From positions 71,991,601 to 72,055,600 of the forward strand of contig NC_088102.1 of the NCBI RefSeq assembly GCF_036370855.1: 64,000 nucleotides of DNA, read 5' to 3'. Positions 1 to 39,501 of the stretch are shown in pieces. Under the pieces are notes generated by a model. That model ran no database searches. It saw nothing but the letters and a program-made list of their open reading frames with translations, and was not told the DNA's origin. A program made the translations under genes and the position numbers. Source of the stretch: Dromaius novaehollandiae. Taxonomy: Eukaryota > Chordata > Aves > Casuariiformes > Dromaiidae. How positions within the stretch are numbered: the first letter of the stretch is position 1; each line of letters opens with the position of its first letter.

Positions 1-488
1 TATTTATGTACCTGGTACACTGATTCATAGCATGTTTTTGGCTGTTCACAGGCATTTGACAAATACGTTCTACACTTAAAATAAACAATTGTTTTGAAAA
101 CATTGCTCCAGGAAATCTGTTACTAGGGCTACAGCTAACAAGCAAGGTGCTATACTAGAGCTATTAGTTGAAATAGGAAAAGTTTGTTCCTATGAGAGCC
201 AGACTGTTCCTAAACAGAATTTCCTGAGATAACATGTTAAGTGGTCTGCATTTTATGCAAGGGAGAACATTGAACAGATCACGTGTTTGACAACATGCAT
301 AGTAGTCTGAAACTTAGGGTCCATCAGTGCAAAACATGGGGTCTGTTACCTTAAAGCTTATACACTGTAGCACACCTCTAATTTAAGGTTTTAAGCCAAG
401 AACTTCAGTAGTTCAACCTACTAGTTTATTATGAGAATGCAAAGTCAGTAGGTGAGAAAATCACCATTAAGTCAGCCTTTGTCTACAG
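1..488 (+). other. TALDO1: TALDO1 intron, 3' part
   Basis: Non-coding sequence before the first visible TALDO1 coding exon. It ends with the acceptor TTTGTCTACAG at 478-488. I see no exon or repeat in it. The upstream exons lie outside the window. Confidence 0.8.
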
Positions 489-2828
489 GGTTCTGGAAGA
501 GGAGTATGGGATTCACTGCAATATGACCTTGCTGTTCTCCTTTGCTCAGGCAGTTGCCTGTGCTGAAGCTGGAGTTACTCTGATTTCCCCATTTGTAGGA
601 CGTATCCTGGATTGGTATGTTGCAAATGGGGATAAGAAAACCTATGAGCCTTCAGAGGATCCAGGTAAATTTGCCTGTGACACACTGCTAAAAACACATT
701 AGCTACTCATCCAAACGACAAATTACTTTTATAAATCCAAACACATGACAGTGTGTGTGTGTTATAAGTAATCTTTGAGCTTCCAGTGAATTACTCTGAA
801 AGTCACTAATTTCTCCTCTTTAGGTGTGAAGAGTGTCACTAAGATCTATAATTACTACAAAAAGTTTGGCTACAAAACTATTGTGATGGGTGCTTCATTT
901 CGAAATACAGGAGAAATAAAAGCGCTTGCAGGCTGCGACTATCTCACTATTTCACCCAAGCTTTTGGCAGAGCTCAGCAAAGAGTATGTCAAGTTAACTC
1001 CCACACTCAGTGTTAAAGATGGTAAGTCCATTTTTATGTAATACAGCCTTGTTCAGTCTCCCTTTAATACCAAGCACTAACAATGTATGCTCCCATCTAA
1101 TTCTGTGCTGCTTGCTTCCATTCTGTTTTAGAATAAAGCTTGAACCCCTCTCTAAAAAGGGTATTACTGTTGCATTACAACTGTAGTGCAGTTGCTTACA
1201 CATAGTCACTTCCTTAGGGTCTTGGTTTCTGTTGATCACACTATCCAGAGTTAAGATTTTGAGTGTGCTTAAGTAATGTGCCCTCCCTGTGGGTCCTCCT
1301 CACCCCCCAGAAGACAGGGAGGACAGAAGAAGGAATTTTATACTTCATATGCTTGGGATGAAACTTTGCTAAGTATTAGCAAAGATGACAAAATTGGTTT
1401 AATCCTTATGTTAACAGTATATTAGTGAATGTTCTGTTAGCCCTAGATGTGTGTGTGTTTAAAAAAAAAAAAAAAAAAAAGTCTCCCCTTCCCCCAAAAT
1501 TGTAGAAGTGAATCATATACAAGACTAAGTGACTTGTTCTAGTGATATTTTGCTGTCATGGTTTTGAATATGTTCCCACTGCACCACTTTTGCTTTTCCT
1601 TAGTCCTACTAGAATTTTACTGCAGAATTTAGAAGATCAGATTTGTGCACAGTCATAGCTATGGGTTGCTACATACAGTGTGCTAAATAGCTGGTAGGCA
1701 TATTATCGGTTGGACTTTTGTTAGGCACTTGCCAAATAATCAAAGACCTAATTGTTGAGTATGTTTGCTTAGATTGTCTCATTGCCTTAGGACTTTTGCA
1801 TAATTCTTGCTAGTGAGCACGAAAGTAGCATGCCATTGAGAAGCAGATACAAAGTACAAATGCAATACAAATGATTATTGTATTGTAAGATAAACTGAAT
1901 ATCTAAATTTCTTAACATACTGAAGTAATCATACAGAGCAGTAACTTTTACATCTTTTACATCTGAAAGCATGCTGATATAGCAAGTCACGTTGAAAGTG
2001 GTGCTTGGAATTTTTCAATTGTTAGAGATGGTCAGAAACTTGACATTTTTAAGAAGTTTGTGAAATTTGAATCAATACCAAGCTGATGATTTTTTTTTTT
2101 CCTCTTTTAATTCTACTTATACAGCTCAGGCATGTGCTCTTGAGAAGATCCACCTGGATGAGAAAGCATTCCGCTGGCACCATAATGAAGATCAAATGGC
2201 TGTGGAAAAGCTGTCAGATGGGATCAGAAAATTTGCTGCTGATGCAGTTAAACTGGAGAGAATGTTAAAGGTAGATGCTATATTGTGCTGCATCTTTCTG
2301 TCTCTCAGGTTTCCCCAAATAAGCAGCAGTGGGTTAGCTGAAGTAAGACTAGGAACCTGCGAGCAAGTCTGATAAAGTTTTATACAAGTGGTATAACAAG
2401 CAGCAAACTGACCACCTAGATGGAATGAACTTGGTGTCTGCATTTGAAGTAAGCTTTGCTTTACTGCATGTCAAAAAGGAATTCATTCCAGGTGTATGCA
2501 GACACACCTGTCAGAAGCTCAAGGCAGTACTTAAAATGGAAGCTAATCCAAATAACACTTGTCTCTAAGTGAAAAGCCCCTTAAGTCTAATTCTAAACAT
2601 GTTGGTTTGTTAGCAGTGATACAAGACAAAGTTAATACTCTTCAGATAGTGAGTTGGAAATAAATCATACTTCTACTCATTGCAGAAGGCATTAGTTCTT
2701 GTTGACAACTTTTATTGACTAAAGCCTGCATTATTAAAGCACAGTGCACTTCCCAAACTTTTGCTAAACTACAGTTTGTTCACTTGTTTTTCTAGGAGCG
2801 AATGTTCAGTGCTGAAAATGGAAAATAG
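489..2828 (+). CDS. TALDO1: Transaldolase, last four coding exons (5' partial)
   Basis: Transaldolase transfers a three-carbon dihydroxyacetone unit between sugar phosphates in the non-oxidative pentose phosphate pathway, in the cytosol. Four coding exons join in phase: 489-664, 824-1021, 2125-2270 and 2796-2828 (TAG stop at 2826). Each is flanked by AG/GT. They give about 183 residues, a little over half of the roughly 337-residue animal enzyme. Recognisable stretches are [20 protein letters not shown] and [11 protein letters not shown] in the first exon, [20 protein letters not shown] in the second, and the C-terminal [17 protein letters not shown] end. The Schiff-base lysine lies in the upstream part, outside the window. 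Small differences from the forms I remember (WHHNED rather than [15 protein letters not shown] rather than AQASDLEKI) look like ordinary divergence. There is no frameshift or early stop, so the gene looks intact. Identification is very secure. Confidence 0.97.
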
Positions 2829-7623: not shown

Positions 7624-7677
7624 CCAATCGGAGCCCAAAGACCTCCACATAAAGGCCGACTCCAAGCTCTTAAATAG
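7624..7677 (+). promoter_or_regulatory. Candidate core promoter of the ZP-domain gene (CCAAT and TATA-like)
   Basis: A CCAAT pentamer at 7624-7628 is followed 42 bases later by a TATA-like TTAAATAG at 7670-7677. This would place a start site near 7700, giving a 5'UTR of about 150 bases before the ATG at 7847. The spacing is typical, but both motifs are short and can arise by chance. No transcript evidence is available here. Confidence 0.3.
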
Positions 7678-7846
7678 CCTGGAGGGGAAGAAGCAGCAGT
7701 TCTGGTCCATGGATTGGAGCCATCAACATAAGATCACCTGCCAGACCCTTCCATCCTGTCCTGCACTTCACTCTGCAATCAAGTCATTTACATCTGAAAG
7801 CTGCGTCCCTGATCTCTGTGGCTATCAAACAGCGCAGTGCAAGGAA

Positions 7847-7978
7847 ATGCCTGGAAGATGCCTGGTGTTTCCTCTGTGGATAATCCTGCTGCCCTTGGGA
7901 AGTGCATTTTCTATGCACCTCTCATATCTGGGATCCTCTTTTAGCCTGGAGTCCTCCTCTCGTGAGAACACAACCCAG
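7847..7978 (+). other. ZP-domain gene coding exon 1: start codon and signal peptide
   Basis: The ATG at 7847 opens a signal peptide: R4, then a hydrophobic run to L17, with GSA before a likely cleavage after residue 20 or 22. The mature start (MHLSYLGSSFSLESSS) aligns by eye with the HFFGGxMxFxPKG start I remember for fish members of this family. The exon ends in phase 0 at CAG|GTGGGT (7978/7979). The frame is open upstream, but this ATG is the one that places a signal peptide at the N terminus. The sequon NTT is at residues 41-43. Confidence 0.75.
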
Positions 7979-10900
7979 GTGGGTCCCTTCTCATTTAACT
8001 TATTTTGCATCTTTCCCTCTTAGTATGAGGCAGAAATCCAAGAGAGATTCCTTAGACTTCTCTATGTGACCTATTGCTTAACCAAAGTCCCTCTGAAGGT
8101 TGTTGGTACATGCTGATAGACTTTGAAATGCAAATGCTGTTGTATGTATATAGCATATTTTATCTCATGAATCACATCCTAGATTTTGGTTTATGATTCC
8201 CAGGACAAAAAAACCTGTCAGTGACTGGGATGAATTACGATGGGATCAGAATGCAGTGAAGTCTTAGAAGAGGGTACCCACCAACTTACCATCTCCCTCC
8301 CCCCACCCCTTTCCAAGGCATGTGTAACATGGGAGAACTGTACACCTGTTAATGGTGTAGATCTAAGTGATAAATGTGCTGGACTGATCTTTTCTAGGCA
8401 AGGTGTCAGACACAAATTGCAGGCAAAGGTCCGTCAGAGAGAAACTGCTACCCCTTCTCTTCCCCAAAGCTTCTTTGCTCTGCAGCTTCCTCAGTTAGAA
8501 AGATTTTTTTTCTAAAGACACAAACACAGACACACTCCTCCCTCTCAGCCTTGAAATACTGACAGATCCAAATGAGCTACTTGGGGAATGAGGAGCCCAG
8601 TAAAGCTTTCTGCCCTGGAATTGTGTCCAGAGCCCTGCTGGGCTGCTAACATCACCCCACAGCTCTGTAAGCAACCAGCATTGCATCATGGCAGGGCAGG
8701 AACTCAGGCTGCAGAATCTGGGGCAGCTGCTGGGCAGCCAGGAGCTCCAAGCCAGGGAATGCAGTGGGGACCCCTATCCTAACCACCCCACCCCCACCTC
8801 CCCTTTCCTCATTTTCATATCCCAGCAGTCAAGCCCCTCCAGAACATGGATCCTAGAGTCTGCACTTTCTCTGACAACACCTTGGCCATCTCCCAGAATT
8901 CAGTCTCATAAGGAGAGCCTAGCAACTCAGCGGTGTGCATCAGGCCCTCATCTTTGCAGACTATCTCACCCAGCTATAGCTGCCTCACTTCAGCCTCAGC
9001 CAGTTTCTGTTATGACCACGAATTCAGCTTCTTAGGAGTCTATCTTCAACCCATTTGTTACTGTATTGAATCAGAATTGCCCATCTGCTCTGTTTCTGCC
9101 CTGTATTGCATCTTCACCCTAACCTATTACCAGGAAATAGCTCCCTTACTCCAACTAAAAGCCTCTCCTTGGGATTGCAGCACAGGGCAGTGTGCCTGTG
9201 CCCACATGGGGGTGGTGTGTGTACCCACACAACTCCAGCAGTCTCCAACAAGGCTAAACTGATGCATCATCCAGCTGGGGACGTTTGAACACTAGCCTGA
9301 TATTCCCAACTGATTCAAGGGTGTTTGTTTCTTGTTGCTCCATTCGGGATGAGGCAAAGCTGTCATCCTAACAGTGAGAAAACAGCTCACAAGCCACAAA
9401 CGTACTGAATAATCAAACACTAGCATTACCAGTCACAAGCTAGAAACCAGAGCTGGACAAAGCACATTCAGCAGATCTATGCCTGTTTCAGTCTCTAAAG
9501 ATTTGGGCCCATTTTAAGTTGCTCTGAAACTTTCTGTGCTGCAACACATTGATATGCCAAGGCCTATTTGCTCTGGAAGAGCAGAAACCAAGACCATCAG
9601 GGTCACAGGCAATGAGACTCACTAAGTGGGGATCTGGTCCAGCATAAGATGAACAGCTCCACTGATCCCAGTAGATCCCTGCCAGTTTGCACAGTGGTGG
9701 TTTACAAACCCTGATGCTCAGGCTCAGTGGCCTAATAGATCTGAAACACTCCAGACTCCTGCCAAATACAGCTGTATTTCCCCAGGGCTGGAGTTTCAGC
9801 AGGAAATGTGCATAAATGTAACAAGCACAGGAGGCTCACATTTGTCTTCAAGCTTTCACAGTAGGTTCCAGCTGTTCTCCAGCTGTTCAGGTTTGCACAC
9901 TGCTGAAAGTAGCCAGCTCAGAGCAGAGAAAGTTCTTATATGGGGAACAATCTGGGAAAACCAGAAGAAAGCTTTCCAGTGACTCATTGTAGGACCCTAC
10001 AAATTACTCACCAATATTGGTTAGGTTTCTGAAAGGCAAAAATCTCCTTATGCATGCAGTTTACACCTCACATCTTAGAGCAGTTCTGTGAAAAGCAGCA
10101 AGGTAGAATTAAGAGCAGCCCAGCACCTTGAAGGCTCTGTGCTGTTTTCTCAATACTGCCTCAACATAAGTGAGCTGTTTGCACTGCAGTCAGGGAAAGC
10201 CATTCTGTGTTTACAATCCACCTGCTAGGCAAAACTCAGCTGCACTGCCCATAGCAGATTTCTTCCACTTCCCCAGCTAGGCATGGATACCCAGAAGCAG
10301 AAAGCCCTAGGTCCAAAGCAAAGCCATGAAGAACTGCTAGATTCTCTCCTGCTGTTGGGGAACATCACATTAATTCTTCATATGCCACTGTCAGGTGCTT
10401 TTATATTACCGAGGGATTGCTTCTCCCTGTTCCAGTACCGAAGATGGTATTTGCAAGGCTGTAAACTGCACTTCCAGGCTCCCAGCAGCAGAATTGGAAA
10501 ACAACTCCACAGCTCCATGCCAGTGGGAAGGAGAGGCCAATCTTTCCCCTACCTCCTCCAAAACCTTCCACCTGAGGTAAGGGAAGCTCTGTAGCTTTCA
10601 GCACTATTGCCCAAGATTTTATTTGAAGCAAGAAAGAAGCTGGGTTTTTTGCCTTTGTTGCTTCCGAGGTAGCCCTGAAGCAGCTTACAAACAGCTTACA
10701 AACAGGAACCTTTAAGAGCAGGAAACAGTATCTCATCACTGCTTTCCTCTGTGGCCTCAGGCCAGTCTGCCCGCTGCTGCACATCCCCGTGGAGGTGGAT
10801 GAGGGAGTGTTGGATTATCTACTCTGCTACTTGGGAGATTCGGATTCAATTCCTGGTTCTGCTGTAGCTTTCCAGGTGACTTGACACAAGGAGTTGCCCA

Positions 10901-13900
10901 GCTCTGTGCTGCAGTTCTTTGTCTATAAAATGGCAGCAGTACTAACTTTCCAAAGCTCTCACAGACTTGGGTTGAAGGATTGACAGCTTAAATAGACAAG
11001 ACCAGACACATGCATGCAGTGCATGGGATCACTGATTAAAAACCCTGTCATACAGCACTCAGTCAGACACGAGAACAGACAGCATCCTGAAACTTTATGT
11101 GATCCCAGACACTCAGACCAAGACTCTCAGCAAACAGCTCAACAGGGGCCTTAGCAATTGTTAAGATGTCACACTTACTACACCTTTTTCCACTAGTTCA
11201 AGTTTCCAGCTCAAGTCCTTTTTAGAGCCTGATTAAAATAAAAAAACACAAAAACAAAACAAAAACAAACAAGAAAAAACCACCATACACATTGCAGATC
11301 AGACAGAAAAAACATTCTCCTTGCTATTCTATGTAAAAAGAAAGGCAAATTTTTACAGCTAATCTTGAAGATTTCTTCCTGTACATCTATGTAGCACAAA
11401 CAAATATAGTTTATAGGGTGCCTGGATCTATCCTGTCCCTGACATGTTCTAAAGTGAAAGCCAGGATTTATGCCAAAACGCATACAAGTCAAATCAAAAC
11501 AGGAAGATCTCCAATGGCAGGATGCATCCTTGATAGGAGGGACGAAGAAGAGCAGAGCCTCTGCCACACAACCTCAGAGCAAACACAGACATCACCAGAG
11601 CACAGATTTTGCACATGAGACTCACCTGCAGCCTACCCACTAGGAGACAAGCAAACTGGTCTAAGTTGGGTAAATAAGCTTCACTCACTGAGATAAGAGC
11701 TACGACATTCAAGCAAAGCCCCTTGTTACTTCTGTACATGCACTGGAAGCACAGTTTCCTTTCTAACGGGAAATGGAGGGGTCTTCAGGTGGCTCTGGGT
11801 CTACCAGGCCCTTGCCTGGGATCACACAGAGACACTTGATCATTCTATGCCCCAGTTGTCCACAACCAAAACCGCGACACTCCCTGAATTGAGCTTGCAC
11901 TTGCTCATACCATCTCTTCCAAACATATAAGGGACCAAGGTATCAGGTACTCTCAGAGCACAGCAAATTCCTGTGGCCTCACAAGAGGCAGAACGTGCTG
12001 TTCCTCCACTAACCCCACAGGCACCTTCTGAGGTTTCAACTGTTGCTCACTTCCACAGGTCTTGCAATAACAGAGTAACAGCAATCCAATAAATATCAGT
12101 ATCACACTACTTTCCTACAGGGATATTTGCATTTAATTCTGCAGAGAACAGCAATGACAGGGTATGTGTTAGGTGTCACAGGTCCTCCAGCAGACTTGTT
12201 CTCATCCCTGTATCTGTCCAAAGGTGCATACATTATCATTGCTTCAGTGGCTATTTCTTGAACCAGTTTATATTTCAGCTGCTTTTTGTGGCTGCTCCGC
12301 TTCACGTGTTGATGTTTCCCATCACATAGGTTTGAAGTATGGTTTAAGTCACTGTCATTAACATCTGCTTCAGGGGAAGCCAGAGCAGAGTGTTTTTATG
12401 GAAAAGTGAGGATTAAAGTCAACTATGGCCTGCTTTTCCTGGGCAACACTATGACGCAGGAGTAAAAGGAAAGCTGAACTCCCCTGCAATCACCCAAAAC
12501 AGACCTGAGGAAAAAGGCTGCCTCTAGCTCATGCAAATGGGCCTGTTTTCACTGAATACAAGGTGTTTCTAACATACAGAAGCCTTAGGCCTAATCCAAG
12601 CTCCTGGAGAACGGTGATCAGTCTCAGGAAATGCAGGCTGGAGAAGAGCTCACCTCCAAGTCCAGGTACTCAGGCCAGGCAGTAGCCCAGCAGGTATTCA
12701 AGGCATAGTTGTGAAACCACTGAGAGGGTACTGGAGCAGTAACACATCCTTTTGTAAACTTTTCAGTATAGACAAGGAGCTCCAGAGCTGCCAGCTCTCA
12801 TTAGCACAATCATTATTTAAAACAATCAGATAAGATGACAGCATCATCCACAGACTCTTCCAAATAATTGATTCCAGAAGGTGCCTCAGCAAGGCATACA
12901 GAATGTCCCTTCCCTAAACAGATATTTCCTCTCACAGTCCTGAAATCAAATTGACTGTTAATTAATAGCACACAGCCCCTGGCACTTCCTGGCAGCTGGA
13001 AGAGAGGATGGCTTGAGAAACTACTATGAACTCTCACAAATCCACTGCACATCAGCTATACAAGGAACTGTATTAAGGGCTGTGATAAGCTGGAGACAGG
13101 ATGCTGCACAGCACTGACTTCAGACCACCCACTACATGGAGAGAGAAATAAATTTAAAAACCTGATTATCACCTTTCCATTTGTCAAAAGCACCCATTTC
13201 CTTCTTCTTTAACAAACAAACCACAGCCACACAATGAAGCAACAAGCTTTGAGATCTCTCACCAATACATATAGAGCTTTTTAGCACAAGTGCAAGCTAT
13301 TTGTTTACTCCCTGCTGCCCTTCTGTAGCAGGGAGGGTGATTTCTGCTGAACCACCAAATTGTTGCCCCACCACCAAAGCAGGGCATGCAGAAGCAAGAA
13401 AACAGATCAGCACTGGAGAAATCCATATGAGGTCAAATAGCTGGAAGTTGGAGCTTGACAAATTCAAACTGCAAATAAGGTCTTAACAGTGGCAGTTACA
13501 GAGAACAGTAATAATTGCTCCCCCTTCCCCCACCTGAAAGTTTTACTCAGGACAACAGTTTATATTTATTTTTATCCTTTGTAACTCAGGTTAGGTCATA
13601 GGACCCTCATTAACATGCATCCAGCAGTATCAAGAGCAGACATCTCCAGTTCAGTGACAGGTAAGATTTTGATTGCCACCACAAAAAATAAGGCAGGGGG
13701 GACCCCAAGGAAATAGATTTTATGCTTTTCCTCTAGTCCAGTGGGCCTTGTACATGACTCAAGAGCCTGGAGTTAAAACACATGACTGTTCTGCAGAAAC
13801 TGGATGAATCTCTCAGACTAGTTCAGCCAACCACGGGTCCCTTCGGGTATCCTCTCTTGTGTTTCCTCAGGCTCTCCAGCTGCTGCTGGTCCCAGGAGGT

Positions 13901-16900
13901 ACTTTCTCCCCAGAAGGATAACACCACCAGCATCCCATTTAAGATGGCAATGACCTACATACTGGGCACTCGCTCTGACACAGGACTGGAAAACTGCTCG
14001 CCGCAGATGCCGCTGCTGCCTGCACTCAGGTAGCTCCTTTGACCAAGCAAATGGGCATCAGCCAGCCAGAAAATAGCACAGTTGGCTAAGTACAACTTTG
14101 CTTGGCCAAAAAAGCAGAACACAACAGCCACCCGGGGGTGCTTGTCACCACTGGCCACAGGGACATGCTAGCACCATGCAGTGGTGCTTTTGCAGAGCAG
14201 CACTGGGATATACATCTTTTGAAGCACGCAGTGGCTAGATGTCCCCAAGTCCACAAAGCAGAGTTTAGCCAGTGACTTTAAAAGATGGCATGTGAAACAT
14301 CTAGAGTAGTAGCCCATGCAAAACAGGAAGCTAAACCACAGAATGGAACTGTGGCATTTTCCATAGGCAGCTCTGATTATTTTACAGTTGCTTCTTTCAC
14401 CCATTTCTGATGAGTTTTACTAAGTTTCTCCCCAGTTTAACTGTGGAAATATCCATTGCTTCTTTCACAACAGAAGTAATGCTACTTTTGGGAGGGTATG
14501 TGGAAAAGGCAGATATTTAACAGCACACAACCTCACATGCACTTAAGACACATTAAACGAGAACTAGAAAACCATGAGCAATTTTTTTAAGCAATAAAAT
14601 ACTTAAAATAATCATATATATATATATACACACACAGAATTTTTTAAAATATATTTTTCTTTTTCTAATCCTCTACTCTTAAAACACTTCAAGATTTCTA
14701 CATCCTTTCTCCACGTTTGTTTAGTCTGTAGGCTAACCTCCCCCCCATATACACACACAAATCACAGGTATCAGAATTCAAGAAAAGAAGGGTTTACCAT
14801 AAAAACAAAACCCAAAAAACTCTGTAGAGAGAAAGGACTGCCTGTCAGCCCCCCTCTAACTGCTGCTTTTGTTCCTGCCTCATAGAGTTCCCCAGAACTG
14901 CCCGACCACATACAACTTGAGTGCCTGGGACCGAGACGGGGACACAGTGAGGTGCCGCTACATGCTTGGAGAGGAACTTGGCTGTGCTTTCTGCAGGAAA
15001 TACCCTTTCCTCCTCCTCAATGAGGCAAGTGCCTGCACCCAAACACCACCAGCAGAGCCATGGGATCAGTCACCTCATGTAACCGGGATGGAGCCAGCTG
15101 GGGTCATTAACAACGTGGGGTTCAAAGGTGACCTTGAGGCACCCAAAACTTTGTTGAAGAGCCAGTAAAATTTTGCAGTAGCAGGGGAAGGCAAGGCAGG
15201 AAAGGGGTGCCTCAGTAACAGTCAGACCCTACTCCACTCACCTATAAACATGTGGTTCCCCTCAAGAGCTGAGGGAGCAGGAGAGAAGCAGGCTCTGCTT
15301 TGGATGCTTACTTTCACAGGAGCCCTTACCTGCTTTTGTAGCAGCTGCAGTTTCCCCAGCCAGCACTAGGGCTATTTCTCTTCAGCGCAGGATAGACACT
15401 TTGAGGTCACTGCCATACATGACCAAATCACAAAATCCACACCATTCTGAAATGGAGCAAGAAACCCAGCAACCAAATGAAACTTCAGCATATGCATCTG
15501 TTTACCCAGCCACGCAGAGCACTCTTACTCCCTATACCTCTTCCTTAGCTTTATTCATCTCCCCTAGGGTTCTTCCAGATTCAGCCTATGAACTCCTTCT
15601 AGTGGCTCCCCAGACCTCCTCAGATGAAGAATTTGGGAGTAGGAGATATCTGTTTTCCCCAAAGAGGTTTTTAAGCTATCACAGACATAGAAACAAGCTT
15701 GGAAATACTGAAACATACCCTTCAGACTCTCCAAGTAGGAGCAAATAAATTTGGGAAACAAAAAAATTTCAAAGACCTAATAAACATACTGAAAACTTGA
15801 TTTCAAAATGCCCTTGCACTTCCTTAAACTCACCCAGTGCCAGTAATACATCCCAGGCACAAAAGCAAGCCTCCCCAAGCCCTTAAGGGGGGGGGGGGGG
15901 GTCGGTGAGCAAGGCTCCTTTTACCACAGGTGGGCTTGCTTTAGCACCTGACCCCAAACACCAGGCCCTCCCCACGACAGGGGCTTCACTTTGGTTTCCA
16001 CAGCCAAGGGAACAGTAGGCATAGATGGCTGCAACTGATCCTTCCTTCCTGCTGGAGCAAACTTTGGCAGTGCCTTTCCTCTAAGCAGTTCTAGTCTAAG
16101 TGCTAGAGTGTACTTAGAAAGCCCCAAAGTGCTAGGAACTGCACATACACCTAAAATGGAAATTTGTCCTCCGAGGTGGCCATGGAGAGAAGTCTCATGC
16201 TTTGAATGAAGCAGGAACTTCTCAGGGTTGGGCTGAGCAGGCCCAGCCCTGTCTCGAGTGGGGACTGGCTCAGCCAGCATGTCCCTAACACATGGGCAAG
16301 CGGTCGTGGGGAGACCACCCTCTGGCAAATCCGCATCTCTCTTTGAGTTTCTGGACACCTCCTGCAATCATAGGGAGAACACAAACACACCCCAAGAGTC
16401 TGCTGCTGTATCAGGCTTTTTTTCTATCCTTCATTCATATACTGCAAGAGGAAACAGCTGTATTTTCCCATACTCATGGGCCTTGCCTAAGCAGTGGGAT
16501 CCTGGAAGTTTCTGTGCATGTAAGTACGGCCTCCCATCAAAGATCCTGGTGCACATCAGAGTCCCTGATGTGAGGGACTCCACATCAGAGTGCAGATGCA
16601 CTAGTGAAAGAGAAAAGTACTCTTTAAAATAAAAAGTATTATTTAAATAATACAGCCCCCAACAGCAGCAGACTATTCAAAGCTAAGTGAGTGATCTAAA
16701 TTTTATTTTCATTGTAATTCTCAGGCAGGGAAACAAGTGGTAGAAATACCATTAAAAAACATTTAATTAAAATGAAAAAAAACAACCCCTCCAAAACCCC
16801 AAGAGAAAACAAACTTTTCATATAATCTGGACCTAGTTTAGGTTGGCAGTCCAGAATAGTGCTGGCAAGTACCTCATTTCTGATTTGCTTGAAAAATCGA

Positions 16901-19900
16901 AAATAAAATACACACACAAAAAAAGTACAAATCATGAAAGAAATAAATTTAGGATTCACAAGAAGCAGGCCAAATGGAAGTGAAAAACCAAAATACCTTT
17001 GATTCAGAGTCAAGTGAAACATTTTGTCTCCTGTTTTTTTCTGTAGCCTTTAAAAATACATATTAGGTGGACTTCCAAGAGAAAATGTGAAATATTCAAT
17101 TTGAATGGTTTTTTTTTTTCTTGGCTAAAAAGCTTGTCATATTCAGTTGCAGAAAGTGTGTTCAGCACAAAATTGCAATTCGCAGCAAATGAATTTAAAA
17201 AATAAAAGAAAGAGAATCACAAGCTCACCTCTGGTCTCCCTAAGGCACATTTTATTATTCATTCCTTGCATTGTTCATTTTATTATTCATTTCCTTAACG
17301 AGGAAAGAGCTAAGAGCTCTGCTGTAAGCACTCCTGGCACCCAAAACATATAACAAAAGCAGTCCTCACACTGAGGAGTTGTCTAACTGCAGGCACCCGG
17401 CACTTCAGCTGTATGTTAGGCTTTCCCTCGGCTGGAGCTAACCAGGCTTGGGGCCTCCCGCTCTCATCCTGCCACCAAATGGTGCTGAGCCCCACAAACC
17501 ACTGCTCCAGCCTGCTGCCTGCCTGGAGGCATTGGAGGGTTAAAACCAAAGCACATAGCTCACAGTTTCACACCCATCATGCAGTCTGAACAGACATATA
17601 TAGTATTTAGCACAAGATAATATAGAAAGTGGTGTATGATAACTGTTAGAATAGGGTAAGAATATGATTAGTAGTTTAAACCTATACAAATAACCATTAA
17701 TTCATTGCAGCTCAGGTCAGCTTAGCTTTACTTAATCTATATGGAAGTTAAAGGAACAGAAAGTTTTGGAGGGACAAGCCAGGTGAAGCAGCCTTTCCAA
17801 GGGCGACAGGTGAGAAGAAACAACTGAGTTCTGAGAAGCCACAGGACATAACTTTAACCTTACGATGATATGATTCTGCCCAACCATTTTATACGGATTT
17901 AACTACTTTTATATTATAAAATAATAGAACGCAGAATTGGCAGCCCAACTGTGTTTCTCTCTCCTTGAACGAATGTTCACGCAGAGGTTTTCCCCAAGGA
18001 CACCCAAACCCTTCTTGAAACTTAGGTACATTGGATGGGGTTCTGCCCTCCTAGATACTTTTCCTTAGAATTGGCACCAAATATTGTTTCAAATAACACT
18101 ACGTATTCTCATTTTAACTTTTGTTTCTCTTTTCATTCTGTGTTCATGAGATCATTATTGCATAAATCAACTTTCATACAGCTCATGAATTTGCTATATC
18201 TGTATTGCATTATTATTTATTTGCTTTCTGTGTTGCATACCTTAGCTGGCAAGTAAAATCCTTTTCATCTGTTATCATGAAAGCTTACTCTCTTTGGGCA
18301 GGTTCCTGCCTCATGATTTCCCAGCTGATGTCTAGAGGCCAAGCCAGTGCTTCAGATCTGTCTTTTTGGTTCTTTTTCGTTCAGGAAGCATGCACTCTAA
18401 CATATGATGGTATGGGCTTGGAAGGGACCTACCCCTTGGAACTGACAGCTGAGGATTTCCCAAGGCAAACAGTGATCCTGACAGCTGGGGCTTGGATGCA
18501 GGAGATCCATCCATACAGTGCTTCAAATGCAGAATGGAACCAGGCTCTGAGCTCTGTTCCTCTGCAGTTCACTTTAACAGGTAATTGTGTCCCCAAGGAC
18601 ATGCAATTGCTACGTCACACATTTTGACTATCTCAGGTCTTTAAGCAAGAGGAAAAAAGCTGTGCATACAGGCAAAAAAAAAATCACACAGCCTGCTTTT
18701 GTATAAGAAAGTATTGCCACGGCTTTGGGGAAAGAAAAATTCAACCCTCTACTAAATTAGCTACAGAATCTTGGAAAAGTTACTGATTAGAATAGCTGAA
18801 AAAGAAATATCTTTGCTATGATCATTAATAGCTATGTACAACAGCTCAGACGTCAATGTAACTTAACAGATATATATATCTGATGTTCTTTCGTAAGAAC
18901 AATCAAACCAGTCAGATTGTAGATCCATTTAGCATAGTATCCTGCCTCCAACCATGGCCAGTATCTGTTGAGGAAGATCTCAACAGAGCAAAGGAAACAG
19001 CCCTAACAAAACACTTTTTCCCTTCTTTCCAGTGGAAAAGCCAGTGGAGGACTGTTCTTTTGGGATCAGAAGGCCTACATTTCCCAGACCAACCCCAGAC
19101 AACGGAGAAAGGATCAGCATCCTGCCATATGAAGAGGTTTCCTTTACAGTGATAGCTGCCAACACAAGAGAAAGGTGACTGAACCCAGCTCCTTGCAGGA
19201 TGCTCAGACTAAGCCCAGGCAGAACTGATTGTGCACCTCTCACCACCTGCACAATGTCTGGCCCTGAGCTGCAATGTACCCTGAAACAGCTATCAGAAAA
19301 TGCAGAATCAGCACCAAATGTCTTCAAGGGCAACAGGAGTCTTTCCTCAAATACCCATGGGCCTAACAGCCGCTAACTGTATATGCATTGTGCATTATAT
19401 ATGCATTATATGTGCATTGGCCGTGCTGTTAACCCTTCATCAGTTTGGCAACCTTCTGCTAGGTCTCTGCCTCTTTTGCTCTTTCAAACACATCATTTGT
19501 GGCAACAAATAGGTTTAGTTTGATGGCATTTCCCACCCCAGGGAACTGGTATCTGACCCAAGCAGGGCTGAGGTGACTACAATCACTGTTGCTTCCTGGA
19601 ACGCAGGCAGGGTCATGCTCCACCTTTTCTAGCTGCTCTCTCCAGGGCTCCTGGGCTTTGTAACATTAGTCTGGAAGCCCTGGAAAGCCTATACAGAAAT
19701 CATATGGGCCAGCATTTGTATCTGAAAAGCAAACCTCTCTGTTGCTAGAAAAATGCACAGAGACCCTCCGCTACCCCGAAAGCAAAGAAATAGCAAGCAA
19801 TTCATGAGTCTGTCCCAGCAGCAGGGTTGTTTTTCTGTCTGTGCAGGAATCTAGCTCTGACATGACCATTCCCTGATCCTCACCATCTGACACTGTATTT

Positions 19901-22900
19901 TCTTGACCTTCTGCAGGATAAGTGATGTGCAGGTCCTGGGTCCCTCTGGGTTGCACACATGGGTGCTCACTGAGGAGAGTACCAGCACTGCATCTGTGAA
20001 CATCACCTGGGAAAACAGCAACAGCAGGAGGCCCGGCCAGGCTTCTGTGTGTTTCGTGGCCACTACGCTGTCAGGGTGAGGACTGTCAAAGGCCATCGTG
20101 GGCTCTGTTGCTCAATTTTGATTTCAGTGTAATGGAGAGAAGCCTACAGTCTGACCTATACAACTTTATTCTTACTTTACCCCTGGGGTCTAGGTTACAG
20201 TCTGAGCTCAGATGCATTTGGATCATTCAGGGTGAGTACCTGCAAAGGGGTCTCCCATTTGTTGTGTAAAGTCCACACAATCACAACACCCTCCAGACAC
20301 AATTTCGCCTAGGGAAATGCAGAATTTCTAGAAAGCAGAAGGGACTCTTGTCTTGCCACAGTCTGTTTCACCCAGATGCAGTCTGATAGCCAGTCTGACA
20401 TTATGTTGTCCTAATGAACAGGGACATCGGTCTGAGCTAGGAATTCAGCTTCGTTTCTGCAGCACCCTAGCAGCTCAAGGCTTGAAGTTCTGTCCCTTTA
20501 TTCCCAGGTATATGTTTCTCCAGTTCATATTGCTGGTGTTTGGTCTAGGAGATCAAGAAACCTGAGCAACCCTGCAGGCAGATTGCAGGAACTCCTCAAA
20601 CTCACTTTAGGTGGCATCACAACTAATTACATTTCACTTCGTTTCTCAGGATTAGAAATGAACAACCTGTACAGAACTGGCTACAATTCAGGGTTGACCT
20701 TTGACTTCACACAAAGAAAAACTGCAAGATGTGGACCATGGGAGAGCAAGAGGGTTTAATAACACTACTAGGTATGCTGAGTTGGGATAATTATTATTAA
20801 GGAAAGCATGCAAGGTAACAGTAGCGTATGGGGTACGAAGAGATGACAAAGGACTGAGGTTTTCATTACAAGAAAGAATTCACAGCTAACTAGGCTGCCC
20901 TCATCCTCCTAAGAAAAGAAAGGAAGACACATTAGGCAGCAAACCCTGTGGCCACAGGTTACTGGGAAGCCATGAGCACAGCTTGCTGTACACAGCAGTT
21001 TAATATGCAACCCTGTGTCAATATGCGTTTTGTACTATTTTAACACTGTGTGGTGTCATAGATTTTTTCCTCTCTTTCAGTTGCAGGCCACCCACAGGGC
21101 AAAGGTAAGCAGAAGTGGCAGGCTGTTCTTCAGGAATTTACTTTTACAAGAGGAAAGTAGCATTTTTGCACTTGGCTTGGGAGATGGAGTTTGCTGGTGG
21201 ATAAGAATGAATGGGAAAGTCTGTATAGAGCAGTACCACCATCTTGTGGGAAGGCTGCAACCTCCCTGAGCAGGTCTTCCTTTCCATTTTCCAGGATACA
21301 TAGAGCAGCAACTAACCGATGAGCAAAAATGCAAAGCATCAACTTTCCCTTGTGTTCACAGGTCTTTAATCTCAGCCAGCTCTGTGTGAACACAGAAAGC
21401 TTGGAAAAAGCTTTTCCACCCTCTTTCAGCTCCCTCTTGCATCCCAGGACTCAGTCAGCTGAGGGAGACATGCTGCTGCTCCTGCTGATTGCTCTCAGTA
21501 CTCTTGTGTATGTACTCAAGTGTTCTTGAAACAAGGGTGCAAGGAGAGAGGTACACGAGAGTGGACCTGTTGGGAAAACAGCCACTAGGGCACACAGATG
21601 GGACACCATGAGTCAATTCATTTATTTTCAGTGTCTGCTCCCAAGGCAGAATTTCACTAGCTTATCTATCGAGATGAATTAGACTATCCTATTTCTGATC
21701 ACCTTAAAAAGAGATACTATCAAAAATGTCAGAGAAGTGTTTCCATTTCTTCTAAACAAGGAACACCTCTGCAAAAATTTAATAGTCTCAGGGCTTAGAC
21801 AGTAGTCAGTCCTTAACTCTTTCCATTGGCTTTTGAGATAAATGAAGTGGGAAAAAATTCAAACATTAAGGAAGAAAAAGTAGCGTGCCTTTAGGTTGCA
21901 GAAACTGGCACAATCCAAGTGACTATACTAAAGCAGTGCTGATGCTGAAGGAGAAACCAGTTGCATCTGCCTGAGCATGATGGAGCAGAGAAAGGCATGA
22001 TCCAAGTTGCTCCACCTTTTGCTGCCAGGTTTTTGGATTTTGGTTGGTTAACACATACAAAAAGCAGACAGCTTTGCCTGTTCTCCTTGCTCAGTAACAG
22101 CTATTATCCATTTTCAGATCTGTCCCCTTGTTTGATGCCTCCTTTTTGCAGCTCTACTCTGTCTCCAGGACCGAATGCAGCTGTCTGTCCCCAGGCTGAG
22201 CATAGGAGACATGCAGGAGGATGATCTTCAGAGGAGCAACCCCGAGTGTCTAGTAAACAGCAATAGCACGCACGTGCAGGTGGAAATTCCTCTTGAGAGG
22301 TGCGGCACCAGAAGGAAGGTATTGCCCCGAAGTTGCTGCAGTGGGCTGCAAATGTCCAGGGCTGTAGCTGCCCAGGGGAATCCAGCAATAGTCCAAGCGG
22401 ATAGACCCATTGCATTGCTACAAGACTGAAATCCTGTCTTTAGCCAGGCCTTCAGGCACTGAGAGGAGAAAGCATGGAGAGGGAGACACACAGGCAAATC
22501 AACTTTTTCTTTCTTGTGCTACAAAAGCATACAGATCCCCATGCTAAGTCCCAGATTGTGTCTGGTGCCACATACATACAGTCTGTGTGAGCGTGTAAGG
22601 CAAACCCTACAGCAAACACGCAGTAAACAGGAAAGGCAGCCCCCAGGAGGGCTGTCCCCCTTCAACAGAGGCCTAGAACAGGGTATTCATGCTATTTCAC
22701 TATGGGCCTTTACTACAGGTGTGTGGCTGAGACATGTGGCCTCCCAGTGTAGCCAGTAGAGACAGGAGGTGCTGCTAGTGCATAAATCCTGTTATGGGCC
22801 CAGCTAGACCAAATTTAGGTACTCTGGGCTGAGGAACAGGCAATAGGTTCCTAATGCAGACACCTGAGTTAACAGCCTGTTAGGAAACAGGTTCTTCCAG

Positions 22901-25900
22901 AGGATTTGACTTACCTGTGGTGTCACACATGACATGGGGATAAAAGATTTTCAAAGTCTTCTATAGTGCTTTATCCCTAAGACTGACCCTGCCTCATCAG
23001 CCTTTACCTCTTATACCCCAAATATATGGGAGAATTTTTTGCTTAAGCAGAGCTCCCTCCTCCCTAGGTAGAACACAGCCTTCCTAGTCTGAACTGTCAG
23101 CATCCAAGCACAAACCATTACACTGCTGCTTCTTCCCCTGCACTTTTCTCCAGGAAAATCCCTCTTTCTTCATCTTCACCAACAAAATTACTGGCCACTA
23201 CAGTAGAGCATCACCAAGTGCATTCAGAAAATCCCTGGCTATCCCAGTGACGTGCAAATACAGACAGGAAGACGACAGTAACAACTATTGCCCCTCTGTG
23301 AGCCAAGATGACAAAGGCTTTGGCAATTTCAGCTTTGACATTAGGTTCATCAAACCGACTACAGAGGAGATGACATGGCTAAAGCAAGGGGATTCCCTTA
23401 ATGCCAGCGTCAATGACCAGGTGTTGATCAGCATCTCAGCCAAAAGTGACTTGGCCCGTGCCCGCTTGGTGGTGCAGTCCTGCCAAGTGCTGGGCAACAA
23501 GGATGCTGTTAATGCTTCCACCTTCATCATACAAAAACGGTAAGAGCAGTTCACCTTCAATTCACCCATTCAAATCCAACCTTGTCTAGGAAAGGCTGAG
23601 TCATCTTGAACCTGTTGGTCTTTCAGCAGTTCCCACAATAACATTTAGGGAAAAGGGAGTTCTTAACCTAATTATTTGCTGCTTGCCCTTCAGTGGTAGC
23701 GAGGCAGCTTCATTGTCTTGGTTGAAGATATGTCAGGGCACTGACAGTGTGACTACGTGCCTGGGCTCCTGTTACCAACTCACAGTTCTGGTAGCTCACA
23801 GACAGCCACCAAATCCTTGTGGCATATGCGGGATACACAAAGCCAGAGATGAGGGATCCTTGAAAGATGATTATCCTCTCTGCACAGCAGCAGACATAGG
23901 CCTGAATCTGTACCAGTAGCTGTTGCCCAAGTCTATGCAAATATGAAGGATGAGGAATTAACTGCAGGTATCACTGCACCTAGGGACTGCAGGTTGTCTA
24001 CTATCACTTCTCCACCCCGCTCCTTCTCTTTTCAGTTGCTTGAATTTAAAGGCAGCCAAAGAAGTGATTTTAGAAGACTCCAAAGACAAGTTGTACAGCT
24101 TCCGGCTCTCCTCTGTAGCCAGCACTATTCCTGAGGTACTTTCTTGCTCCTGTTTTTTAATCCCACTGAATCTGCGTTCTTAGGCAATCACCTACACTGT
24201 CTTTGGGAGGCCTTTTAGAACTACAGATATAGCAAACTGGACATGAAGGCTGCTCTCCTCCCCTCTTCCTCATGTAGACATTTTCCAAGTATCAGACATG
24301 CCTCCTCCATGCATTCTTCCCATTTAATCTTCCACTGGAGCAGAGGAAAAGATACATCACATACTTCTCCCTGGATGCATAGAAAGTTCCTGGATGGAAA
24401 GAGAGCTCCCACAGACATGCATCCTTGCAGCCAAGAGCACCCTGGATGATCTCACATCCCTTCCATGAAACACATGCGGCCTTGTTTTCCTATCCTATGG
24501 GACATGCTAGATGTGTAACCAAGAAACTCCATCATATACTCCACGAAGATTAATATAAACTCTTATTCATACATGAAACAGCAAATTCCATTTCATGCTA
24601 ATAGTCTCCTTTTGACCACTAAATCATGTATTTCAAGAATATAAAGCAGGGATCAACAGTTAGCAAATCAACAGCATATAGCTCAGGGAACGTCGTGTCA
24701 CCAAAGCCTTCAAAGGTACTGATAGGGGAAGCAGAGAGGGAGGAAAAAACACAAAAGATGCCGGAAAATAAAACCCATCATCCTTGTTTCCAGGTGTTCG
24801 TCACCTGTGATGTGAAACTGTGCTGCAGTCCAAGCAGGTTCAATCTCTGTCCTGGGTGCCAGTCCCCTCACAGCCATAGAACATCAAAGCAGATCTTGGA
24901 GACAAAGCTGTATCGGATCAGCACAGGACCCCTTCGGATCACCAAGAACCCCACCAGTGGTAAGAAATTTGGGATCTCTCTACAAGGGTGCTGGATGGGA
25001 ACTTCTAGAACACAACAGGAGATGAAAGCTTGCAAAGCATTAAGTTTGGGCACTAAGGTAAACAGCTGTCCCACTTCCCCAAAAGAGATGGTCAAGTATT
25101 TGATACTTTTAAATTAGTCCTTTGAAACTCATTTATAAGGAATGTCGAATACAGTCATCATAGGCTATTATAGACTACATTAAGCAAAGCCAGACTGTAT
25201 CCAATAGGCACCATTCAATGTTTTAAACAAAATTAGGACCACTTTCATTTAATTTGATACTTATTTTCATGCATTGGCATTGCAGAGAAGGTAGCACTCC
25301 AGTGTTCCCAGCTGCCTAATCCTATCAAGATGACAGGTCAGCCTCTGACATGGTCTTCTACATCCCAAGGGACAACACAGAGATCCCAGATGGGCCTGCA
25401 AAGGCCTGAGAGAACCCACTCTGAGCCCTGAGCAGAGATGCCCTACAAAACTCATTAAAAGCCTGCCTTTGACAAAAGGCTCCTTTTGTCTCTGGCTAGT
25501 ATTAAATGCTTTCTTGTAGAAAACTCTAACACTATAGAGAATACATATACACTGGGTGAAGCTCCCTAGGACACTGGTGTGACAGTCAGTTGCAGCAGCA
25601 AGCCAGTTCTTTACAGGGGTCCTACCTTAAGACCAGCGGGCCTCATCTGTCCTACCGGAATTACCCCATTTGGCTCGCTGCCATTGTCTAGGGCACCACA
25701 CAAGCAAAGCCCCAACATTGCACTCACTAAAGCTGTTAATTATCACTGCTGTGATGGCAACAGCCTATGAGGGAGCTCATCAAAGCTGACAGCGGCCCAC
25801 AGTGATTAGAAAAGTGGACGTCCCTGTACAAAGACACTCACAGAGACCCACAATACAGCTGTAACTCACAGAGCTGAAAAGGCTGTTCTATCAGCAACTG

Positions 25901-26804
25901 AAAAGAAGTCAGGTTAAACAGAAAAGCACTCAGGCACAGAATCAAATGGCAGAACTTATCACATGGCAACTAAGAGAAAGAAGTAAGGCAGAAGGTTCAG
26001 TTTTTTAAGATTATACTTTGGATGCTCTAGGAAAAAAATTCCTTCAAACACATCAAACACTACTATGACTATATCACAACCATTAGTTGCAGACATCAAC
26101 AAGGACTGAGTTCAAACAGCTTCTAGGGAATCCCTTAAAATAAGCAAATGCTTTATTAAGCATTCAGCATAAGCCAAAGAAGCAACGCTTCCTCTTGCCA
26201 GAAAAAACAAGTCTGCCCAAGCTGTCTCTCCATGTCACCTTCTCTGAATTTTGAGAATCTGCTTTTAAGCTACCTGTAGTGACTGCAGTTACATTATTAA
26301 GCCATGGGAGAGATCTGGTAGCAGAGGATTCATGACGAAGGCCCAAACTGTTAGGGATTTAGCCCTTTCCCATCACCTTTCATGTCCCTTGTTCACATTT
26401 ACTGGGTGAATAGGATTAAGTTAGTTAAATTTGAAATATTATCTTTTTGTTACTCTTACAGCCAAAATTTAAATTCAGCTAAAATTTAGAAAGTATCAAA
26501 ATTCAGATCAAACCACAAGCAGGTCTTGGCTCACTCCAGCTGTTGCATCAGCTTGCAAATACTTTGTGTTTCTGTTTTTAAATGGCTTTGAGCATCCCTC
26601 CTTACAACATAAGTGTAAAGCTGCTGCTGATGGTTCCTATTTCCTTAGATATTCTTTACCTTTCCTTTCTTCCCTGCAGGGACCAACTATACAGCTTTGG
26701 TGGTGGGTGTAGTGCTGGGATGCACAGTGATCTGTGTTGTCTTCTTGCTGGTGAAGAAATCCTTTGTGGGGGTTCAATACAGGAATGTTTCTCTACAGCT
26801 ATAA
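7847..26804 (+). CDS. ZP-domain type I membrane glycoprotein, 14 exons, uncharacterised family
   Basis: Assembled by splice sites and phase: 7847-7978, 10395-10576, 13871-14029, 14886-15024, 18385-18580, 19033-19174, 19917-20075, 20194-20231, 21081-21104, 22152-22318, 23154-23539, 24036-24135, 24794-24959, 26680-26804. Every junction keeps frame; the total is 2115 bases, 704 residues plus stop. Residues 1-20 are a signal peptide (hydrophobic core LVFPLWIILLPL). Residues 45-390 form a cysteine-rich ectodomain with the family motifs LGTRSDTG, VPQNCPTTYNL, DGDTVRCRY, ACTLTYDG and EDFPRQ. A ZP domain spans about 391-640; its ZP-N cysteines are C394, C423, C441 and C480. A membrane segment lies at about 669-688, followed by a 16-residue tail. 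Many NxS/T sequons are present. From memory, similar proteins recur in fish and amphibians without an assigned function. ZP modules generally polymerise extracellularly; whether this one does is unknown. It is not ZP1-4, uromodulin or GP2 as I know them. Exon boundaries are manual; exons 2, 4, 8 and 9 are the least certain. Confidence 0.85.
10826..10985 (+). repeat. MIR-like ancient SINE fragment
   Basis: Located in intron 2 of the ZP-domain gene. It reads like the MIR core and LINE-related tail: a GGTTCAAATCCC-like start (GATTCAATTCCTGGTTCTGC), a GTGACTTGACA block, a CTCTGTGCTGCAGTT block and TCTATAAAATGG near the end. These blocks occur in the right order and spacing for MIR. The copy is strongly decayed. 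Boundaries are approximate. Confidence 0.65.
14886..15024 (+). other. ZP-domain gene coding exon 4, with probable GC donor
   Basis: Encodes VPQNCPTTYNLSAWDRDGDT and on to the end LLLNE, a strong family block. The frame stays open past the exon, but homology ends exactly at GAG|GCAAGT (15024/15025). That is a perfect fit to the GC-AG intron donor consensus AG|GCAAGT. The next exon starts in the matching phase at TTCAG|GAAGCATGC, giving NE|EACTLTY. No GT donor in frame fits as well. Confidence 0.75.
15025..18384 (+). other. Intron 4 of the ZP-domain gene
   Basis: A 3.4 kb intron without a recognisable exon. It carries a run of about 16 G at 15886-15901 and AT-rich stretches near 16.6-17.2 kb and 17.6-18.2 kb. 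Open frames on either strand (up to 148 codons at 15921-16367 on minus) show no protein family that I recognise. Confidence 0.5.
15886..15901. repeat. Poly-G homopolymer tract
   Basis: A run of about 16 consecutive G in an intron of the ZP-domain gene. It is length-unstable and error-prone in sequencing, so the count may not be exact. Confidence 0.8.
18900..19005 (+). repeat. CR1-like retrotransposon fragment
   Basis: Lies in the intron between coding exons 5 and 6. The string GATCCATTTAGCATAGTATC followed by CTGCCTCCAACCATGGCCAG resembles the 'GATCCATCTAGCCCAGTATCC ... CTGTCTCCAACAGTGGCCAG' segment I know from sauropsid CR1-type repeats. It is short and decayed, with approximate ends; identification is by memory only. 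Confidence 0.45.
21081..21104 (+). other. Probable 24-base microexon of the ZP-domain gene (exon 9)
   Basis: A pyrimidine-rich acceptor (TTTTTTCCTCTCTTTCAG) precedes 24 bases, followed by the donor GTAAGC. The exon is symmetric (phase 1 to phase 1) and adds eight codons, VAGHPQGK plus the shared first base. It lies directly before the ZP-N start ALLCLQDRM. Fish relatives I recall have a VVGQ-type linker at the same place. Because it is symmetric, skipping would keep frame, so it could be alternative or spurious. Confidence 0.6.
22152..23539 (+). other. ZP-N coding exons 10 and 11 of the ZP-domain gene
   Basis: Exon 10 (22152-22318) starts after TTTTTGCAG and encodes LLCLQDRMQLSVPR, the C-x4-M-x3-V type opening of a ZP-N fold, then NSNSTHVQVEIPLERCGT. 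Exon 11 (23154-23539) continues ENPSFFIFTN..., IPVTCKYRQ, FIKP and the hydrophobic stretch VLISISA into the ZP-C half. The four ZP-N cysteines C394, C423, C441 and C480 are all present. Alternative acceptors nearby put the frame out of phase or lose C394. Confidence 0.8.
26680..26804 (+). other. ZP-domain gene last coding exon: membrane anchor and tail
   Basis: Starts after TTCCCTGCAG. It encodes TNYTALVVGVVLGCTVICVV and on through FLLV, a single transmembrane helix (about residues 669-688), then KKSFVGVQYRNVSLQL and TAA at 26802-26804. The positive KK right after the helix fits a type I orientation. V695-Q-Y697-R-N-V700 fits both the ITIM consensus and a YxxPhi sorting motif. Confidence 0.85.
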
Positions 26805-38000: not shown

Positions 38001-39501
38001 TCAATTGATTTCCCCTGGTAGAAACATGTTTCAAAGACTGTGGTTAGTATCGCTAGAGACTTCTGTTTTGTTTCTGGAAGGATAAGCATGTAAGATTTTG
38101 TGAGACTTTAGCTATCAAAGTAGTGAAGTTTCCCAATTTTTCTACTGAAGAGGTTCTTTAAGATTCATCTCTTCACTCTGTGGAAAACAGATATTGGACA
38201 GTGAAGTTCAGAACGACAAGAAGCACCTCTTCATGTCTTCAGGTCAATATTAAGAAAACGGAAGTTTAAAAAAATGAGTAACTTAATCAGTAAAGATAAT
38301 AAAACATCTCTCAAAAATAGTTAGTATGCTACTTCTCTGATCAACTGGTTTCACACTAAATCACAGTAACCTCCCATTTTTACTTACCCCAGGAGTAGCA
38401 ACTTGCAGATTAAAAGCAGAGCTAGTCAGTGTAAAGCAATGAAGGAAGGACTGGGCTGACACCCCTGCAAAACAGAGTCCAACAATTTAAGGAAAGAATC
38501 ATTACATTTTAAACCAAATCATACTGGTACATTTTACCTTGCAAGGTACACAAACTTGTTTTTTTGCTCATCTTAAAAACTCCCAAGAATTTCAGAGGGT
38601 TACTTTTAAATTTAATAAATACACTGGCCCTCATTATCACTGTGTATTGAGAGATACATGACGAAGATATTGTTTGTCTGGGCTGGAGGTGACTGGAAGG
38701 AAAGAGGGGAAAAAAGGCAGCTCTTCCAGGTATACCTGTGAGCGTAGCACAGCTCAAAACCAGGTATATGTACGAGGTGCAAGACAGCATGCAGGCATGT
38801 ATTCACATAGCACTACTGTGCATACAGGGACACACAAGCATGTGTGCATGCCTGTGCACATCACAGTAGCGCATGTATGAGCTTGGTTTTCATGCATGCA
38901 CAACACAGGTGCACGTGCAGGGGCAGCAAGCGTGTGCAGAGAGCAGGTACACATCTGCACAGCTCAGCGGCACACGCGGGGACTCTCATCCACATGCTGC
39001 TAAGATGCAGGTTTACAGACACACTGCATGGCTGTGTATGCTGGGGTGTACGTACATGCACGGCAGGACTGTGCACGCAAGGTAAGAAGGGGATGCCAGT
39101 GCATGGCATGGCTGAGGACGCAGAAGGCGTGAACTCAGCACAGCTGTGCACGCAGGGGGGCACAGGCCGGACACAGCCGTGCACGGGAAACGCTCGGCAC
39201 GCTTTTGCAGCAGCGCACGCACGGGGGCGCGGGCACAGCACCGTCTACGTGCCCAGGGGCGTGCACAGCTGGGGGTGCATGCCGGGGGGTGCACACAGCA
39301 CAGCTGGGCATGCCTGGGGTGGGGGCAAAGGCCTGAAGGACGCCGCAGGCCGGAGGCAGCACACACTGCCGGGCCGGAGCGCACCGTATTGAAGGGACAA
39401 ACGGGGCCCGGCGGGACGGGGGTGCCTGCCGGGAGCGTCTCACCCGCGGCGGCGGCGCTGGCGACGATGAGGCAGGTGGGCTTGCCGAGCCGGTCCGACA
39501 T
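32050..39501 (-). CDS. GATD1: GATD1, class I glutamine amidotransferase-like domain protein (complete)
   Basis: Seven coding exons on minus, all in phase with AG/GT borders: 39444-39501, 38388-38464, 37909-38014, 37319-37426, 36540-36634, 34113-34206 and 32050-32165 (TGA stop). They give 217 residues; human GATD1 (PDDC1) is about 220. Landmarks: [15 protein letters not shown] at the start, [71 protein letters not shown] and the C-terminal [12 protein letters not shown]. The fold is DJ-1/PfpI-like. At the position of the usual nucleophilic cysteine in the AxCHG elbow this protein has G123 (AVGHG), as I recall for human GATD1 too, so classical cysteine catalysis is doubtful. The true function is little known. 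Gene order with TALDO1 and CEND1 supports orthology. Confidence 0.96.
36635..36663 (-). repeat. GATD1: (AAAT)n microsatellite forming a GATD1 splice acceptor tract
   Basis: The plus strand reads AAATAAATAAATAAATAAAT and ends at 36663. On the GATD1 strand this is (ATTT)n leading straight into TTTTAATAG and the coding exon at 36634. The repeat therefore supplies the pyrimidine-rich tract of that acceptor. Confidence 0.8.
37099..37117. repeat. Poly-T tract
   Basis: A run of about 19 T in the GATD1 intron between coding exons 4 and 5. No attached retroposon body is recognisable. Confidence 0.7.
38760..39320. repeat. Degenerate GTGCAYGC/CACA-rich low-complexity block
   Basis: In GATD1 intron 1, just inside the promoter island. 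Short related words (GTGCATGC, GCACACAG, GTGCACGCAGG, CATGCACA) recur irregularly over about 550 bases with alternating purine-pyrimidine stretches, becoming GC- and CpG-richer toward the promoter. The lack of stop codons here produces long overlapping open frames on both strands that I do not regard as genes. Confidence 0.55.

Follow-up and report, generated by a model that had tools for sequence, protein, structure and literature searches.

A divergent membrane-anchored ZP-module protein predicted from an apparently single-copy gene between TALDO1 and GATD1 in Dromaius novaehollandiae

ZP modules are the building units of egg coats, of the tectorial membrane and of the uromodulin net, and to our knowledge the human TALDO1-GATD1 interval holds no gene for a protein of this kind. 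In the bird Dromaius novaehollandiae a preliminary description placed such a gene in that interval, which raises the question of whether the gene is real and, if so, what sort of ZP protein it encodes. The stretch of DNA analysed here, termed the window, is 64,000 nucleotides long and corresponds to positions 71,991,601-72,055,600 of contig C5 (NC_088102.1) in an assembly that totals 1.468 Gb in 271 contigs; window positions 6500-28500 were read for exon choice. From this analysis we infer a single-copy gene that looks intact and encodes a type I ZP-module membrane glycoprotein, which would probably be released by a protease and then polymerise in the manner of uromodulin.

The preliminary description gave no inner exon ends; exons were picked here by reading frame and splice signals. 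Fourteen exons join on the forward strand at positions 7847-26804 and encode 704 amino acids followed by a stop, which reproduces the span, exon number and length first proposed. The joined frame contains no internal stop and all splice phases fit, as had been claimed for an uninterrupted protein. The two other forward frames contain 34 and 27 stops, and random sets of pieces drawn from the gene's own introns (n = 20,000) contained a mean of 30.9 and a minimum of 13. Of the thirteen introns, intron 4 alone is GC-AG (GAG/gcaagt), a point absent from the preliminary description; the other twelve are GT-AG. Of the four GT sites checked at up to about 55 bases from the intron 4 donor, three break the frame, and one, 54 bases on at 15078 (CAT/gtaacc), keeps it and yields a protein of 722 amino acids with 18 additional residues. 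Because this GT donor is also in frame, exon 4 may end at either site; the GC donor is preferred because it matches the donor consensus more closely. With this single alternative at the end of exon 4, the earlier observation is confirmed in every testable detail. Upstream of exon 1 its frame stays open as far back as a stop at 7556. An in-frame ATG at 7709 within this extension would lengthen the protein by 46 residues ahead of the signal peptide; translation start at 7847 is preferred. When exons were compared with Pfam separately, exon 10 by itself gave a partial ZP-N match, and neither exon 11 by itself nor exons 12-13 by themselves gave any match. The gene model is supported by the recovery of full-length ZP-N and ZP-C only after splicing.

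The position of the gene between TALDO1 and GATD1 was borne out by a transaldolase exon upstream and a GATD1 exon downstream (Table 1). In the open reading frame at 412-702, 54 residues match PF00923 at 2.6e-18 and also match solved transaldolases; the later exons, recognised by eye, are presumed to belong to TALDO1. Downstream, 34 residues of the frame at 37823-38107 match solved GATD1 (8a3p, 7nd2) at approximately 1.5e-13, and the frame at 36405-36713 is, by eye, presumably also GATD1. No Rfam family matched within the window at its gathering score.

Table 1. Features of the window, in window coordinates, with the basis of each assignment.
Feature	Position	Strand	Basis
TALDO1 3' coding exons, upstream neighbour	472..2250, outer limits approximate	+	PF00923 and solved transaldolases
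Possible promoter: TATA-like CATAAA 7648, TTAAAT 7670	7648..7675	+	string scan, weak, inference only
Exon 1: start codon, signal-peptide-like N-terminus (residues 1-44)	7847..7978	+	hydrophobic stretch, residues 3-25
Exon 2: ectodomain, Cys 56, 64, 69, 86	10395..10576	+	spliced translation; no Pfam match
Exon 3: ectodomain, CysCysTrp, LGTRSDTG motif	13871..14029	+	spliced translation
Exon 4: VPQNCP...DGDTVRCRY; then GC-AG intron	14886..15024	+	spliced translation, donor check
Exon 5: CTLTYDG...EDFPRQ...SSVPLQF	18385..18580	+	spliced translation
Exon 6: second ectodomain segment	19033..19174	+	spliced translation
Exon 7: second ectodomain segment	19917..20075	+	spliced translation
Exon 8 (38 bp)	20194..20231	+	spliced translation
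Exon 9 (24 bp): linker to ZP module	21081..21104	+	spliced translation
Exon 10: first half of ZP-N, Cys 394, 423, 441	22152..22318	+	Pfam PF23344; exon alone 8.9e-07
Exon 11: ZP-N end (Cys 480), linker strand in internal-patch place, ZP-C to Cys 556	23154..23539	+	Pfam, alignment
Exon 12: ZP-C, Cys 576	24036..24135	+	Pfam on whole protein
Exon 13: ZP-C Cys 613, 618, 619, 627, 630; basic HSHRTSK	24794..24959	+	Pfam, alignment
Exon 13 also: STGPLRI in external hydrophobic patch place	24794..24959	+	alignment
Exon 14: transmembrane helix (about residues 668-689), tail KKSFVGVQYRNVSLQL, stop	26680..26804	+	spliced translation
GATD1 exons, downstream neighbour	within 36405..38107	-	solved GATD1 match and eye
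CEND1, further downstream, single open frame	56752-57195	-	Pfam 3.6e-50

The encoded protein consists, in order, of a signal-peptide-like start, an ectodomain, ZP-N, ZP-C, a single transmembrane helix and a short tail. Its hydropathy profile marks residues 3-25 and 664-697 as hydrophobic, with a tail after the helix, in keeping with the signal peptide, transmembrane helix and short tail listed previously. At E values up to 1 the spliced protein matches two Pfam families only, ZP-N (PF23344; residues 394-483, profile positions 1-101 of 101, 41.6 bits against a curated cut-off of 24.7, E = 1.6e-10) and ZP-C (PF00100; residues 502-623, profile positions 2-128 of 133, 32.7 bits against a curated cut-off of 24.6, E = 9e-08). 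Both halves of the ZP domain that had been read by eye are thus recovered above their curated cut-offs. The protein carries 15 N-glycosylation sequons, one inside the tail and 14 elsewhere, and 30 cysteines, 27 of them lumenal (residues 56-630). As this lumenal count is odd, one cysteine may pair between molecules.

A profile built from uromodulin and GP2 only scores 28.2 bits on the protein; the highest score among 2,000 shuffles is 5.1. Only ZP-C (residues 503-622) is covered, and the match stops short of ZP-N. A three-way alignment with uromodulin (UMOD, PDB 6zs5) and GP2 (PDB 8xc5) contains ten cysteine columns common to all three proteins. These correspond to Cys 394, 423, 441 and 480 in ZP-N, the full ZP-N set that had been claimed, and to Cys 556, 576, 613, 618, 619 and 627 in ZP-C; as the last three ZP-C columns adjoin gaps, the residues that truly belong there could be 627/630 and not 619/627. 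Neither uromodulin nor GP2 has a column that partners Cys 492 or Cys 630, and a cysteine that both possess, opposite residue 406 of the window protein, is absent from the latter. Since Cys 492 and 630 are unpartnered and the number of lumenal cysteines is odd, the ZP module may behave differently here. A search of the PDB with the joint alignment found ZP structures, which proves nothing because the alignment itself contains UMOD and GP2.

Both reference proteins have ZP-N followed by ZP-C, the linker strand and a GP before the anchor in common with the window protein. The strand GNFSFDIRF aligns with GMFTVRMAL of uromodulin, where the internal hydrophobic patch would sit, and STGPLRI lies in the place of the external patch, where only its GP aligns, beside gaps, to LNLGPI; which uromodulin residues form the two patches is our assumption. 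The last ZP-C cysteine is followed, ahead of the patch, by a basic segment, HSHRTSK; neither a dibasic nor an RxxR furin-type site precedes the external patch in the window protein. Identity is 24% to uromodulin and likewise 24% to GP2. Pancreatic GP2 is GPI-anchored, and its ectodomain differs from that of the window protein. Uromodulin has EGF and D8C N-terminal domains and a GPI anchor (PMC4755741), whereas the window protein has no Pfam match in that region and ends in a transmembrane helix; it also lacks the RFRS site, and its Cys 492 and 630 are unmatched. Indeed, EGF/D8C-type domains, a feature of the uromodulin/GP2 family, are absent from residues 1-390 by Pfam at E values up to 10. 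Internal and external hydrophobic patches are described for ZP modules in PMC4755741, according to which hepsin cuts uromodulin at RFRS and so frees the external patch for polymerisation.

Gene structure links the locus to other ZP genes. Exon 11 ends inside the codon preceding Cys 576, the sixth ZP cysteine (Cys6), so that the intron between exons 11 and 12 is in phase 2. The same intron place and phase occur in seven of eight ZP loci fetched from the same genome (L001-L007); the next exon was read in three of these seven (L004, L006 and L007), and in all three Cys6 comes directly after the intron. The eighth, L008, which by eye we take to be betaglycan-like, reads through this position without a break. 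A ZP-C tree was built from 20 rows, 18 from the same genome (window included) and two human, over 76 columns. It used 17 of the 30 genome ZP-C matches and left out L008 (another part of the domain), L028 (internal stop) and 11 others, mostly of the second half of ZP-C. The window ZP-C is at most 20% identical, over 70 columns, to each of the 19 other rows, and its branch measures 3.9 changes per column. It falls beside C1_121.57 with support of 84/75, under the bar, and no starred group contains it. On its sequence the gene reads as that of a ZP protein, an assignment that does not reach as far as uromodulin, tectorin or an egg-coat protein.

Two other regions of the same genome (G000) hold several ZP-C exons each. 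At C6:44.50-44.65 Mb five alike exons (L006, L022, L023, L024 and L029) lie within about 150 kb as a tandem ZP cluster. At C10:23.44-23.70 Mb three alike exons (L025, L027 and L028), which we take to be ZP3-like, lie within about 260 kb, and one of these matches has an internal TGA.

When the full protein was searched against the 1.468 Gb assembly at E values up to 10, 12 of the 13 rows were its own exons and one lay on contig C1; an ectodomain query returned seven rows, of which three were own exons and four were weak places. None of the three weak places that were read was accepted as a paralogue. The one on C1 (L019) sits among frames recognised by eye as cystathionine beta-synthase. The one on C8 (L020) resembles the DGDTVRC region at 42% identity, with E = 1.6e-4 when a 13-kb stretch was searched locally with no composition correction and 1.4 genome-wide; this local search found no neighbouring exon, and the match was judged, without proof, to be chance. 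Both places on C265 contain stops, and the one fetched (L021; local E = 0.002, stops inside) was likewise attributed to chance. No second copy was found in the assembly at the sensitivity of protein-query searches, which agrees with the single copy proposed earlier. Contig scans with the window protein as query gave pattern matches in 9 viral and 43 genome stretches, none of which was confirmed.

The preliminary description also named relatives in fish and amphibians. An approximate fish-like sequence aligns to the window protein at 40% identity, which is a lead and not evidence; contig scans with it gave 3 viral and 39 genome stretches that fitted the pattern, none of them confirmed. We assume that predicted fish and amphibian proteins carry LGTRSDTG, VPQNC and DGD-VRCR motifs in the same order together with a ZP module. 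These proteins are said to be multi-copy, in contrast to the one copy found here, and it is plausible that the gene is a retained member of that family. Among the matches listed from the open-licence literature, no paper was about this gene by title or abstract, and nothing there contradicted the lack of an assigned function.

The ectodomain has no catalogued match. The N-terminal 390 residues, whole or in three pieces, match no Pfam family at E values up to 10; residues 107-390 have no sequence match in the PDB at the same limit, and pieces 107-273 and 270-390 match no NCBIfam family. The lone PDB sequence match of the whole protein (E = 0.29) was judged to be chance. By our reading, the spacing of the two ectodomain segments, at approximately residues 100-270 and 273-385, resembles that of tandem Ig/cadherin-like sandwiches, a predicted fold. 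We tentatively suggest that residues 23-392 may be an undescribed recognition region displayed on the ZP filaments of an old vertebrate family, of which one copy was kept in birds at TALDO1-GATD1 and which was lost in mammals. If birds did retain, and mammals lose, a gene bearing this ectodomain, it would follow that there is a matrix or mucosal filament system without a human counterpart.

How might such a protein work? An epithelial or secretory cell would produce it, and it would arrive at the surface as an inactive precursor, in which STGPLRI, just before the membrane, would pair with the GNFSFDIRF strand between ZP-N and ZP-C and so block assembly. A trypsin-like membrane protease might then cut in HSHRTSK, after the last ZP-C cysteine; this site is a guess, because no dibasic or RxxR furin-type site precedes the patch. 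The freed ectodomains could polymerise via their ZP modules, with the glycosylated N-terminal part projecting from the filament and setting the binding partner. This polymerising-glycoprotein reading is favoured by the two Pfam ZP domains and the uromodulin/GP2 profile score, by the ten cysteine columns and the external-patch GP kept in comparison with uromodulin and GP2, by the phase-2 intron before Cys6 that other ZP loci share, and by the signal-peptide-like start, membrane helix and 14 sequons outside the tail. It is weakened by the low identity of ZP-C to the other tree rows and by the profile match stopping short of ZP-N. The precedent for release and assembly is uromodulin, whose cleavage frees the patch for polymerisation (PMC4755741).

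Other readings were weighed against this one. Endoglin and betaglycan are ZP proteins with membrane helices that are not known to form filaments and that, as far as is known, work as uncleaved, unpolymerised receptors. The window protein could in the same way be a membrane-anchored receptor, its ZP module serving as a stalk, its ectodomain binding a ligand and its tail anchoring or sorting it. The missing furin-type site, the cysteines without a partner column and the true transmembrane helix and tail, as opposed to the GPI anchor of uromodulin, all point that way. However, in the alignment uromodulin and GP2 have counterparts to both the linker strand and the GP that precedes the membrane, and the 16-residue tail shows no signalling motif by eye. 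We regard a receptor as unlikely.

An egg-coat (vitelline membrane) protein of oviparous amniotes appears more improbable still. Many ZP proteins are egg-coat components, and eight egg-coat subfamilies, often lost in mammals, are described in PMC6262864. Against this, the ZP-C exon lacks the PQW/PKW...DG/NG end of five bird loci that share one tree branch, the window row has no well-supported place beside those five in what is a short alignment (76 columns) that leaves room for a kinship, and Pfam detects no trefoil domain. The five loci are presumably ZP1/2/4-type genes, and the subfamily identities of the bird loci are provisional in general. That the locus is an artefact or a decayed gene, with exon-like pieces that are never joined or that belong to two genes, is very improbable. 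The very short exons (38 and 24 bp), the GC donor and the alternative exon 4 donor might suggest it, but the phases all fit, 704 codons pass without a stop against the intronic mean of 30.9, and exons that separately give partial or no Pfam matches (10, 11 and 12-13) give both domains when joined.

Overall, the finding is real but modest: a divergent member of the ZP-module proteins. The tissue in which the gene is expressed would tell a mucosal, a sensory and an egg matrix apart. A divergent, open, apparently single-copy ZP gene whose ectodomain is uncatalogued would suggest that birds, and perhaps other non-mammals too, possess one more extracellular filament.
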